Positions 39,985 to 43,095 of a stretch of DNA of 64,000 bases are shown one piece after another (positions within the stretch are counted from its first letter, which is position 1; each line of letters begins with the position of its first letter). Both the position numbers and the translations under genes were made by a program. This stretch comes from Desulfobacteraceae bacterium (GTDB lineage Bacteria > Desulfobacterota > Desulfobacteria > Desulfobacterales > Desulfosarcinaceae), in the NCBI GenBank assembly GCA_013003715.1, contig JABDIN010000027.1:62001-126000 (forward strand), given 5' to 3'. Below the pieces are notes generated by a model. That model saw nothing but the letters and a program-made list of their open reading frames with translations. It made no database searches and had not been told where the DNA came from.

Positions 39985-40383
39985 GTTTCCTCCCGTTACT
40001 TGTTATCAGATTGTCGTTCGCTTTCGATTGGATGTTAAAACAAGGAAGGCCCCCACAACCCCATCCCTTCTGTGAGTAGCGGCATTTGACATCCGAGTCA
40101 AGGTGAATTGCAACAATCCCGGGGTAACCGAATTTGTCTTTTTATGCACCTGGTCATGTCAACCTTCACCTTTCCCATATGGGAATACATGCAATTCAAT
40201 GTCAAATTTCAATGCCCAAATGTCAAATGTCGGCATGTTATCTATTTTGACAAAAACCGGTAACACAGGAAGTTAAAAATCGGCAGAATACCTAGCTCTG
40301 ATATTCAATTTCCAATTTGACATTATCCCAATCCGATGATTGGATCTGAATTCCGATGTAAATCATAATCGAAAGAAATCACC
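39985..40383. other. 399-bp gap rich in ATTTGACAT words
   Basis: No gene. The space carries at least six copies of the motif ATTTGACAT or its complement (40084, 40156, 40199, 40220, 40245 and 40315), described with the wider repeat set. The flavin oxidoreductase ribosome site lies at its left end. Confidence 0.5.
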
Positions 40384-40856: not shown

Positions 40857-41498
40857 ATGCAAACCGAACTGACACCCCGGCAACAGCAGCTTCTGGACTA
40901 TCTGGAAACCCGGATTTCAACAAAAGGAAAGGCACCGTCCCTGCGCGAGGCGGCCGACGCCATGGGGGTGAGTCACACGGCGGTGGCCCAGAGCCTTCGC
41001 GCCCTGGAAGAGAAAGAGTATGTAAAGCGCGATGGTCGCTACAGCCGGACCATCTACCTGCTCAACCGTGCCAGCCGGCCGGCCGGGGTCCAGCGATGGC
41101 GTGAAGTGCCGGTGATCGGCCGGGTAACGGCCGGACTGCCCATGTACGCCCAGCAGGAATGGGACGGCAGCCTGGTGGTGGATGCGGAACGCTATCCCGG
41201 CAAAAACCTGTTCGCGCTGAAAATCCAGGGCGATTCCATGCGGGACGCCGGTATTCTGAACAACGACCTGGCCATTTGCGAACCCCGGCAGTACGCGGAA
41301 AACGGCGAGATCGTGGTGGCCCTGATCCACGGCGAGGAAGCCACGGTCAAACGCTTTTACCTGCGCAAGGACCACATCGAGCTGCGCCCCGCCAACCCGG
41401 ATTTCAAACCCGTACGCTACGGATTTTCCGATATCCTGGTGCAGGGAAAATTGATCGGGATACAAAGGGTTTTAGGAGCAGTGCCTAAAATGCGCTAA
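40857..41498 (+). CDS. lexA: LexA-type SOS repressor
   Basis: Self-cleaving transcriptional repressor of 213 aa. The N-terminal winged helix (SLREAADAMGVSHTAVAQSLRALEEK, named by its SHTAVAQSL recognition helix) is followed by the cleavage site A92-G93 in VTAGLP, catalytic Ser127 (GDSMRDAG) and Lys165 (ATVKRFY). RecA-stimulated cleavage would derepress its targets. It heads the imuB/dnaE2 cassette, as lexA2-type genes do elsewhere. The last codons and the stop lie inside a CTAAAGTGC-type repeat, giving the odd tail GAVPKMR. A TCTCC-N11-GGAGA dyad at 40712-40732 is one possible operator. Start ATG 40857 fits the family; the in-frame ATG at 40827 would add ten residues. Confidence 0.92.
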   Translation: MQTELTPRQQQLLDYLETRISTKGKAPSLREAADAMGVSHTAVAQSLRALEEKEYVKRDGRYSRTIYLLNRASRPAGVQRWREVPVIGRVTAGLPMYAQQEWDGSLVVDAERYPGKNLFALKIQGDSMRDAGILNNDLAICEPRQYAENGEIVVALIHGEEATVKRFYLRKDHIELRPANPDFKPVRYGFSDILVQGKLIGIQRVLGAVPKMR

Positions 41499-41520
41499 AA
41501 TGCCTAAAGTGCGGCTAAAG
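41482..41520 (+). repeat. Left inverted array of CTAAAGTGC-type units
   Basis: A run of near-identical units (GTGCCTAAAAT, GCGCTAAAAT, GCCTAAAGT, GCGGCTAAAG) that overlaps the lexA stop. Its last 20 bases, TGCCTAAAGTGCGGCTAAAG (41501-41520), are the exact reverse complement of 42198-42217 and nearly so of the array at 41902-41972, so the four-helix-bundle gene is bracketed by inverted copies. Confidence 0.75.
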
Positions 41521-41523
41521 TTA

Positions 41524-41877
41524 ATGAAAAATAAAGAATTTGCAGAAAAATTGGAGATACGCACAAAGGCTTTTGCGGTGAGCATTATCCGTCTGTCCGG
41601 AACATTGCCGAAAACGACCGAAAGCGCGGTTATCAGAAAACAAATAACGAAATCCGGTACATCAATCGGTGCAAATTACCGCGAGGCCAACAGATCCCGC
41701 AGTAAGGCCGAATTCAAGAGCAAAATACGGCTCTGCGAAAGTGAGGCAGCCGAGACCTTGTATTGGCTTGATATCGCCATCGATGCTCTTGGAATTCATA
41801 AAGATACAGTGAGTACGATATACAATGAATGCAAAGAACTGCTCGCAATCTTCACCGCCGCCGCTAAAAAGCTGTGA
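41524..41877 (+). CDS. Four-helix-bundle protein (23S rRNA intervening-sequence/S23 type)
   Basis: A 117-aa all-helical basic protein. The hallmark segment LPKTTESAVIRKQITKSGTSIGANYREANRSRSKAEF, recognisable by KSGTSIGANYREA and SRSKAEFKSK, and the later AETLYWLDIAIDAL identify the four-helix-bundle/IVP family. Relatives are encoded in intervening sequences of 23S rRNA genes and in many dispersed loci, and the Avd protein of diversity-generating retroelements shares the fold. ATG 41524 lies just after the left inverted array; the frame is open from 41500 but would start inside it. The gene is set between lexA and the rest of the SOS cassette. Function is not known; nucleic-acid binding is likely. 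Confidence 0.88.
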   Translation: MKNKEFAEKLEIRTKAFAVSIIRLSGTLPKTTESAVIRKQITKSGTSIGANYREANRSRSKAEFKSKIRLCESEAAETLYWLDIAIDALGIHKDTVSTIYNECKELLAIFTAAAKKL

Positions 41878-41901
41878 ATGCTTTTCTCAAAAAAGTCAAA
41901 T

Positions 41902-41972
41902 GACGGAGCACAGCGACTCCTTAACTTTAGGCACTTTAAGTACTTTAGCCGCACTTTAGCGCACTGCACTTA
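41902..41972 (+). repeat. 71-bp repeat, copy 1 (hairpin plus inverted array)
   Basis: Begins with GACGGAGCACAGCGACTCC, where GGAG and CTCC can pair, then CTTTAGGCACTTTAAGTAC and a run of GCACTTTAG units. It is repeated almost identically at 42157-42226. Read on the other strand, it resembles the array at the end of lexA. It starts 25 bp after the four-helix-bundle stop. Confidence 0.75.
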
Positions 41973-42035
41973 CCGCGCCGTGACCGTATCTGTCACTGGG
42001 GCATGTTAGTATCGGATTGAATTGGACAAAAAGAT

Positions 42036-42060
42036 GTTGGGTTTCGTTCCTCAACCCAAC
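42036..42060. repeat. GTTGGGTT...AACCCAAC hairpin repeat
   Basis: GTTGGGTT (42036-42043) and AACCCAAC (42053-42060) form a perfect 8-bp stem around TCGTTCCTC. The whole unit resembles an intergenic palindrome I recall from several proteobacterial genomes; confirming that needs a search. Confidence 0.5.
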
Positions 42061-42074
42061 CCACGAACTGGCTT

Positions 42075-42136
42075 GCGGGAATGACGGTTGTTTGGGATTT
42101 ATATGATTTCCCGGCCGTCATGCCCGCGCAGGCGGG
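42075..42136. repeat. REP-like compound palindrome
   Basis: GCGGGAATGACGG (42075-42087) is complementary, with one mismatch, to CCGTCATGCCCGC (42115-42127). A second hairpin CCCGC-GCAG-GCGGG follows at 42123-42136, then TATCCAGG. The CGTCATGCCCGCGCAGGCGGG core looks like a family of repetitive extragenic palindromes widespread in proteobacteria. Confidence 0.6.
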
Positions 42137-42156
42137 TATCCAGGGTTTATGAAATA

Positions 42157-42249
42157 GACGGAGCACAGCGACTCCTTAACTTTAGGCACTTTAAGTACTT
42201 TAGCCGCACTTTAGGCACTGCACTTAATGCCCTTTAGGCACTGCACCCA
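42157..42249 (+). repeat. 70-bp repeat, copy 2, with extended array
   Basis: Bases 42157-42226 repeat copy 1 almost base for base; one GC is missing near the end. The array then continues as further CTTTAGGCACTGCAC units to 42249, directly before the ATG of the DUF72 gene. Direct copies lie 255 bp apart. Confidence 0.7.
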
Positions 42250-43095
42250 ATGGGAACCAGCACCAATCACCAAACTCAAAACCCTCCCTGCCGTCTGATG
42301 ATCGGCACCAGCGGGTATTCGTATACGGAATGGATCGACGGCGGGTTCTATCCCCCGGGCACTTCGTCCAGCCGCATGTTGCCGCTGTATGCCGCAACCT
42401 TTTCCGCCACCGAGCTGAACTATACCTGGTACCAGATGCCCAAGGCGCCGGCCGTGGACCGGATGCGCCGGAAAGTACCGGCGAATTTCAGCTTTGCCGC
42501 CAAACTCACCCGCACCATGACCCATGAGGTCAACCCGGGCAACTGGCGCGGGCAGGCCGCCCAATACCGGGACGGCATCGCCCCGCTGGTGCAGTCCGGC
42601 CAGTTGGCGGCCATTCTGATTCAACTGCCGCCCTATTTTGACCGGTCACCCGGAAACCGGCGCTACCTGGCAGCACTGCTCGACGACCTGGACGATCTGC
42701 CCCTGGCCGTGGAATTTCGCCATCGCTCCTGGGCCGAAGACAGGGTCTTCGCCGAACTCGAACAGCGCCGGGTCGCCCTGGTGGCGGTTGATGAACCGGA
42801 CCTGCCCGGGCTTTTCCCCAAACTGGACGTGGTGACCAATCCCGATCTTTTTTATCTCCGGTTCCACGGCCGCAACGCCAAGGGATGGCGGTCCGGCAAC
42901 ATGCAGCAGCAGTTCGACTACAATTACACGGACAGCGAACTTTCGGAATGGACCGGTGATAAAATCGAAACCATGGCCCGGAAAGCCTGCACCGGCCTGA
43001 TCTTTTTCAACAACCACGTGCGGGCACAGGCGCCCGGAAATGCCGGTCGGCTGGCCGAGCAACTGGCGGCAAATGGCTTGCTGGTTTCAGGATAA
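42250..43095 (+). CDS. DUF72 (YecE-like) protein
   Basis: A 281-aa TIM-barrel-like DUF72 protein. The signature IGTSGYSYTEWIDGGFYP (YSYTEW and FYP are diagnostic), ATFSATELNYTWYQMP, FSFAAKLTRTMTH and the C-terminal YLRFHGRN with FFNNHVRAQAPGNA are present. The biochemical function of DUF72 is not established. Here it occupies the place where imuA often lies in ImuB/DnaE2 cassettes. No ribosome site is visible before ATG 42250, which follows the repeat directly; ATG 42298, at the start of the conserved core, is an alternative. Coding sequence is GC-rich compared with genes before 40 kb. Confidence 0.88.
   Translation: MGTSTNHQTQNPPCRLMIGTSGYSYTEWIDGGFYPPGTSSSRMLPLYAATFSATELNYTWYQMPKAPAVDRMRRKVPANFSFAAKLTRTMTHEVNPGNWRGQAAQYRDGIAPLVQSGQLAAILIQLPPYFDRSPGNRRYLAALLDDLDDLPLAVEFRHRSWAEDRVFAELEQRRVALVAVDEPDLPGLFPKLDVVTNPDLFYLRFHGRNAKGWRSGNMQQQFDYNYTDSELSEWTGDKIETMARKACTGLIFFNNHVRAQAPGNAGRLAEQLAANGLLVSG

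Follow-up and report, generated by a model that had tools for sequence, protein, structure and literature searches.

The window analyzed here, a stretch of 64,000 nucleotides, contains an SOS-type cassette with the gene order lexA, DUF72, imuB-like gene, and dnaE2-like gene, and a gene for an S23 or 23S rRNA-intervening-sequence (IVS) protein (positions 41524 to 41877, plus strand) is located between the first two. The upstream host gene lexA (40857 to 41498, plus strand) was identified by TIGR00498 with an E value of 2.8e-51 and the downstream host gene DUF72 (42250 to 43095, plus strand) by PF01904 with an E value of 3e-57. Inspection of the sequence and a repeat search positioned a left array of three to four degenerate CTAAAGTG-type units, pointing inward, at 41482 to 41521 on the plus strand. 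The last lexA codons and the lexA stop codon (TAA, 41496 to 41498) are within this left array, as is an alternative in-frame ATG at position 41500, which would extend the S23 protein from 117 to 125 amino acids. Downstream of the S23 gene, the repeat search identified “right array 1” (41922 to 41972, minus strand), which is the reverse complement of the left units and carries a small hairpin (41905 to 41920) at its inner end. A spacer of 184 bp (41973 to 42156) with an imperfect palindrome (42075 to 42087 and 42115 to 42127) follows, then a second copy of the hairpin (42160 to 42175; sequence and repeat search) and “right array 2” (42177 to 42251, minus strand), which ends at the start codon of DUF72 (42250). 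Over a length of 58 nt (41902 to 41959 and 42157 to 42214), the two right copies are identical.

The earlier note had described an S23 gene between a left array and inverted right arrays, with a GGAG/CTCC hairpin at the beginning of each right copy. Both observations were confirmed, and the motif GGAG-CACAGCGA-CTCC indeed opens the two right copies. The exact inverted match, given before as 20 nt, is one nucleotide longer (41501 to 41521 and 42197 to 42217, 21 nt at 100%) and is the longest complement of right array 2 to the left array. The 255 bp reported between the right copies is correct as the start-to-start spacing but not as the gap, which is the 184-bp spacer. The inverted complementarity between the left and the right side of the gene reached a score of 48, and none of 60 shuffles scored above 21. 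A search of the own genome for the 70-bp element, suggested as a part of a mobile unit, demonstrated that it was not dispersed but present in two copies, both at the window locus, and a search of 30 genomes of the family added to these two copies one partial match (85%, positions 18 to 58). The 184-bp spacer was also considered as a dispersed repeat and rejected, being single copy in the genome. With up to two mismatches allowed, the CTAAAGTG-type pattern matched six times in the own genome, all at the window locus, and the reversed control matched six times elsewhere. This restriction to a single place would agree with arrays that are nothing but locus-specific, low-complexity sequences unlinked to the gene.

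The window protein matched PF05635 (E 8.9e-20, 71.3 bits, curated cutoff 33.8) and TIGR02436 (E 3.3e-24, 85.2 bits, cutoff 24), and its predicted structure is composed of four helices with a pLDDT of 95.5. Comparison of this model with known structures resulted in Z scores of 18.4 over 111 residues for 2rld and 15.8 for 2gsc. The Avd proteins of diversity-generating retroelements followed with 13.1 (8ub7) and 12.4 (4dwl), and the first unrelated row was at 12.3, so that the fold shared with Avd has a weak margin over unrelated bundles. These profile matches and structure comparisons bore out membership in the rRNA-IVS family and an Avd-type fold, both of which had been named in the earlier note. 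No reverse transcriptase was found among the four neighboring genes scanned, lexA, DUF72, the imuB-like, and the dnaE2-like gene. According to PMC4990558, the homologue 2gsc forms a homopentameric ring, and this paper and PMC11270868 describe the function of S23/IVP as unknown or uncharacterized. Among 22 members of the window-type S23, 33 of 117 columns were invariant. Of 146 genomes from the order to which the window organism belongs, 113 contained genes matching PF05635. PHROGs yielded no match to phage families, and tblastn returned 2 phage and 26 plasmid records.

To evaluate whether the gene had landed between lexA and its partner genes, as the earlier note proposed, 40 related genomes were searched with lexA, which yielded 20 loci with lexA followed by DUF72. 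None of these 20 relatives contained an S23 gene in this slot, and the window gene, therefore, looks inserted. The gaps were mostly short. Three of them contained, as judged by eye, inverted arrays that were built from three other units and enclosed no gene, and a profile search did not find an S23 domain in them. This indicates that most relatives have an empty slot and that different array elements have made use of it. No target-site duplication was found to flank the window element, the longest border repeat being 6 nt, and no closely related genomes that differed in the presence of the element were found. At another locus, an S23 element with GGTTAGCCGG-like arrays was located just 5′ of an apparent dnaE2 gene, which would mean that the SOS cassette is used at a second slot.

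A connection between the array unit and the protein was visible in the closest relatives of the window protein, the best 80 of 515 (56 to 67% identity) from 84,980 species genomes, which, judged from the record titles, span the Desulfobacterota, Bacteroidota, Planctomycetota, Calditrichota, and other phyla. At least two CTAAAGTG-type units were present within 200 bp of the gene at 71 of these 80 loci, compared to 0 of 91 other S23 loci and 1 of 80 at a distance of 400 to 600 bp. The exact 8-mer CTAAAGTG occurred in 58 of the 80, with 0.6 expected. A period of 9 or 10 was found in 46 of 62 periodic flanks, and the polarity of the arrays was convergent at 65 loci, divergent at 1, and mixed or unclear at 14. 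When sorted by homologous neighbors, the 80 loci formed 59 groups, 54 of them with at least one positive member. In a second set of 29 window-type genes, 25 possessed CTAAAGTG-type units (control, 0), and the remaining 4 had a CTAAAATG variant, identified by eye. Linkage of the arrays to the S23 family elsewhere is thus an observation; the earlier note had stated beforehand that arrays unlinked to the family would speak against its proposal, and the opposite was found. The reading as locus-specific, low-complexity sequence is hereby refuted as far as linkage goes, and we consider it highly improbable as a whole.

Other S23 clades were flanked by other units, mostly heptamers, for example AATTCGT in Nostoc. 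At the 20 S23 loci next in similarity (36 to 53% identity), different units were seen by eye, some of them resembling ATTGATG or ATTTTAG, and CTAAAGTG was absent. Between taxonomic families, the likeness of the arrays increased with protein identity from 0.06 (below 45%) to 0.164 (60 to 80%) and 0.253 (above 80%), with a flat control region. A Mantel test of array likeness against protein likeness gave r 0.39, and 500 permutations reached 0.11 at most. At 4-fold sites of window-type S23 genes, the third-base identity was 0.315 compared to an expected 0.279. Since synonymous sites are nearly saturated, the unit was held and not merely inherited, and common descent of whole elements would not easily explain the linkage of unit and protein. 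We infer that an S23 protein recognizes the arrays of its own element.

The architecture of the window locus was also found in the S23 family at large. The 92 loci considered comprised 30 loci, the next 60 from a list sorted by E value, and 2 of the own genome. The list was ordered by E value and the best matches were taken, so that strong matches are favored. The same loci underlie the Mantel test, the flank periodicity, the order-wide orientation and wobble counts, and the comparison with other S23 loci. For the complementarity scores, two loci were left out because of short flanks. Of the 90 usable loci, 65 displayed an inverted left-right complementarity that surpassed all 60 shuffles, compared to 1 of 86 at 400 to 600 bp; the complementarity was not above shuffles at 25 loci, and 17 loci matched in direct orientation. 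Periodicity beyond 40 shuffles was detected in 103 of 183 flanks (control, 8 of 178), with periods of 7 (58 flanks), 14 (22), 8 (14), 9 (4), and 15 or 16 (5). All of eight plasmid S23 genes, from Cyanobacteria, Chloroflexota, Bacteroidota, and Spirochaetota, had short-unit arrays by eye, which were clearly inverted in five cases.

The elements are located in operons. The orientation was determined for 160 loci with both neighbors called, 90 order-wide and 70 window-type: both neighbors were on the strand of S23 at 120 loci, one neighbor at 40, and neither at none. Of the 80 relatives, 73 entered a test of the distance to stop codons, and an upstream gene could be used in 58 of these. The distance from its stop codon to the start of the array had a median of 8 nt and was 15 nt or less in 43 of the 58. 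Elements that insert into transcribed operons, or that survive there, would agree with the strand bias and the location behind stop codons. Occupancy of a slot was variable, as seen between acsB and acsC in one genus. Among 16 such loci, two with a displaced start and one without a readable acsB end were left out, and array elements were present by eye in all 13 readable gaps. The units, again by eye, formed CTAAAGTG hairpins in five gaps and were of the TCATTGG, TCAGTGG, or GTTGAGT type in the others. A profile search found one complete S23 gene and one fragment in the acsB-acsC gaps, and a fragment in a third gap was recognized by eye only. In two of these species, the acsC proteins were 98% identical and the elements between acsB and acsC were different.

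Evaluation of these elements needs to consider the known IVSs. Both the S23 protein family and the IVS with its inverted ends have been described before. The 23S rRNA IVSs of Coxiella, Leptospira, and Salmonella encode the same protein family, and the gene is flanked by complementary ends. According to PMC4990558, the IVS in the 23S rRNA of Coxiella contains an S23 gene with GACAGAT heptamer repeats just 5′ of it and a 28-bp stem and is cut by RNase III. The window element likewise has complementary, stem-forming ends (21 nt at 100%), but it is located between lexA and DUF72, outside of the rRNA genes, and elements of the window type differ from the 23S IVS by a 9- to 10-nt unit that is tied to the protein clade and by gene-less derivatives. 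Rfam found no rRNA family match between 41300 and 42400. An Rfam identity of the element as RF02748 (E 0.99) was at chance level and rejected.

Alternatively, the elements may be IVS-like RNAs, with arrays that pair in the operon transcript and are cut by RNase III, selection on the RNA structure through processing or stability of the operon transcript, and an S23 protein that binds this RNA. In agreement with this, the left array paired with the right array in the folded RNA of the window element (z −3.87; none of 100 shuffles as stable), and inclusion of the second right copy lowered z to −5.91 (none of 20 shuffles as stable). The strict co-direction with the host genes, the Coxiella IVS just described, and Avd, which has the same fold and works in a ribonucleoprotein (8ub7), also speak for an action as RNA. 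On the other hand, two inverted arrays of one unit fold anyway, and the paired arms exhibited no bias toward changes compatible with G-U wobble: compatible and not compatible changes were 122 to 114 at 65 loci and 133 to 187 at 67 loci, the latter in the opposite direction to that of RNA selection. Selection on RNA pairing was thus not detected. Movement or function as a folded RNA, as considered in the earlier note, received no support from this test, although the RNA folds better than shuffles, and we regard this explanation as rather improbable.

The arrays also occur without the gene. Runs of three strict CTAAAGTG units were found in 93 of 389 genomes, with up to 318 matches in one of them; the reversed control was found in two genomes among the matches listed. 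Only 1 of 30 CTAAAGTG array loci examined had an S23 gene within 1.5 kb. Many of these “solo” array loci consist of a short convergent pair that encloses a hairpin similar to that of the window. Strict arrays were present in 30 of 34 genomes with a window-type S23 and in 63 of 355 others, an odds ratio of 35 in draft genomes by a statistic that ignores kinship. The own genome is one of the four without strict arrays, owing to the degeneracy of its units. Of the 355 others, 22 had at least 10 array matches without a close S23. Together with the 29 array loci without S23, they indicate that arrays can persist or spread without S23. At one locus (L314, 1502 to 2581), a pair of CTAAAGTG arrays about 1 kb apart enclosed an apparent part of a transposase, which we take to be of the IS110 type.

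Short intergenic inverted-repeat elements in high copy numbers with a partner protein encoded elsewhere are known as MITEs and as REP/REPIN elements with their RAYT transposase. In contrast to these, the ends of S23 elements are degenerate clade-specific arrays, and their partner, a four-helix bundle, has no known catalytic activity. The target duplication of a transposon or MITE bounded by terminal inverted repeats (TIRs) is absent from the window element but present in S23 elements of another genome, G142. For one type of S23 element, 38 copies of the outer end were counted in this genome (control, 0). The inverted ends were GGATCATCTCC and GGTTCTTCTCC, and the elements were 115 to 840 bp long, many without an intact gene. 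Of 18 distinct copies with both ends, 9 had an exact 8-bp target duplication at a fixed position and 12 a match of at least 7 of 8. When the ends were swapped between pairs, 0 of 306 were exact and 6 of 306 matched at 7 of 8 or better. Transposition has therefore occurred in this one genome. In these copies, S23 was often disrupted or missing, which means that it is not needed in cis for movement there. Compared to their neighbors, eight elements had both in the same direction, one both opposed, and seven were mixed, which is too few for an evaluation.

These data may also be read such that S23 is a passenger, the arrays being the ends of miniature elements that an unrelated transposase moves and S23 a cargo in some copies. 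The 29 of 30 array loci without S23 and the numerous, often gene-deprived G142 elements with their 8-bp duplications speak for such a model. A cargo, however, gives no explanation for one unit per clade across phyla in 59 neighbor groups, nor for the 33 invariant columns of the protein, and a passenger role appears quite improbable to us.

A second type of S23 element, at three loci (L240, L246, and L116), had ends like GTAACTACTCAGG and CCTGAGTAGTTAC and arrays of GAAGGCT-like units; the exact GTAACTACTCAGG end pattern was found in only one of five genomes. At two other loci (L119 and L126), S23 elements seemed to interrupt a transposase-like gene, which presumably resembles a REP-associated transposase; Pfam gave no Y1 transposase match for it.

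We consider it probable that the segment from 41482 to 42251 is one inserted unit and belongs to a bacteria-wide class of elements with an S23 gene and convergent clade-specific arrays, which are putatively bound by S23. The S23 protein, a pentameric ring as judged from its homologues, would bind the repeated units of its own element, either as DNA or as nascent RNA. The arrays would be cis-acting ends, and the ring may mark these ends for mobility or regulate the element. Gene-less array pairs would be nonautonomous relatives of the S23 elements. The catalyst of the movement would not be encoded in the element, with transposition by TIRs and 8-bp duplications in G142 and perhaps something else elsewhere.

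More tentatively, the S23 elements may constitute a new class of mobile elements, which is defined by an S23 ring and the clade-specific convergent arrays it reads and of which the rRNA IVS would be a special case residing in rRNA. Such elements would have no transposase of their own, spread with gene-less array hairpins at up to hundreds of sites in a genome, occupy slots behind stop codons in operons in the direction of transcription, and perhaps use a reverse transcriptase or a host enzyme in trans, as Avd does. No literature that ties S23 clades to array units was found among the open-licence papers searched, which is no proof of novelty. A definite and testable partner for the S23 protein is offered by the single DNA word that its clade retains at the borders amid change. 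The class would also be a possible source of some degenerate arrays of short units in bacterial intergenic regions, and the rRNA intervening sequences, which have long been regarded as curiosities, would become part of a much wider class.

Other short-unit repeats are similar in part. In PMC4679880, TAACTGA heptamers are described for Beggiatoaceae, Cyanobacteria, and Bacteroidetes as intergenic, located near start codons, and patchy in distribution, and a mobile repeat-binding protein is proposed. Like the S23 arrays, they are intergenic short units, but they are direct and not inverted. Their assignment to S23 elements was rejected because none of 104 viral-contig loci with three units had an S23 gene within 300 bp. 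GAATTAC arrays were near S23 in 1 of 27 cases.

Upstream of lexA in the window, between 40100 and 40900, several TTTGACA/TGTCAAA-like words were noticed along with a 7-nt tandem repeat of low score (40198 to 40231); these may represent LexA operators or a further array of short units. A second S23 gene of the own genome, on contig C73, is bracketed by inverted AAATTTAAATGTTAAATT-like arrays between neighbors that look like genes of a cytochrome oxidase operon, and a seemingly different S23 element occupies the same place in another genome.
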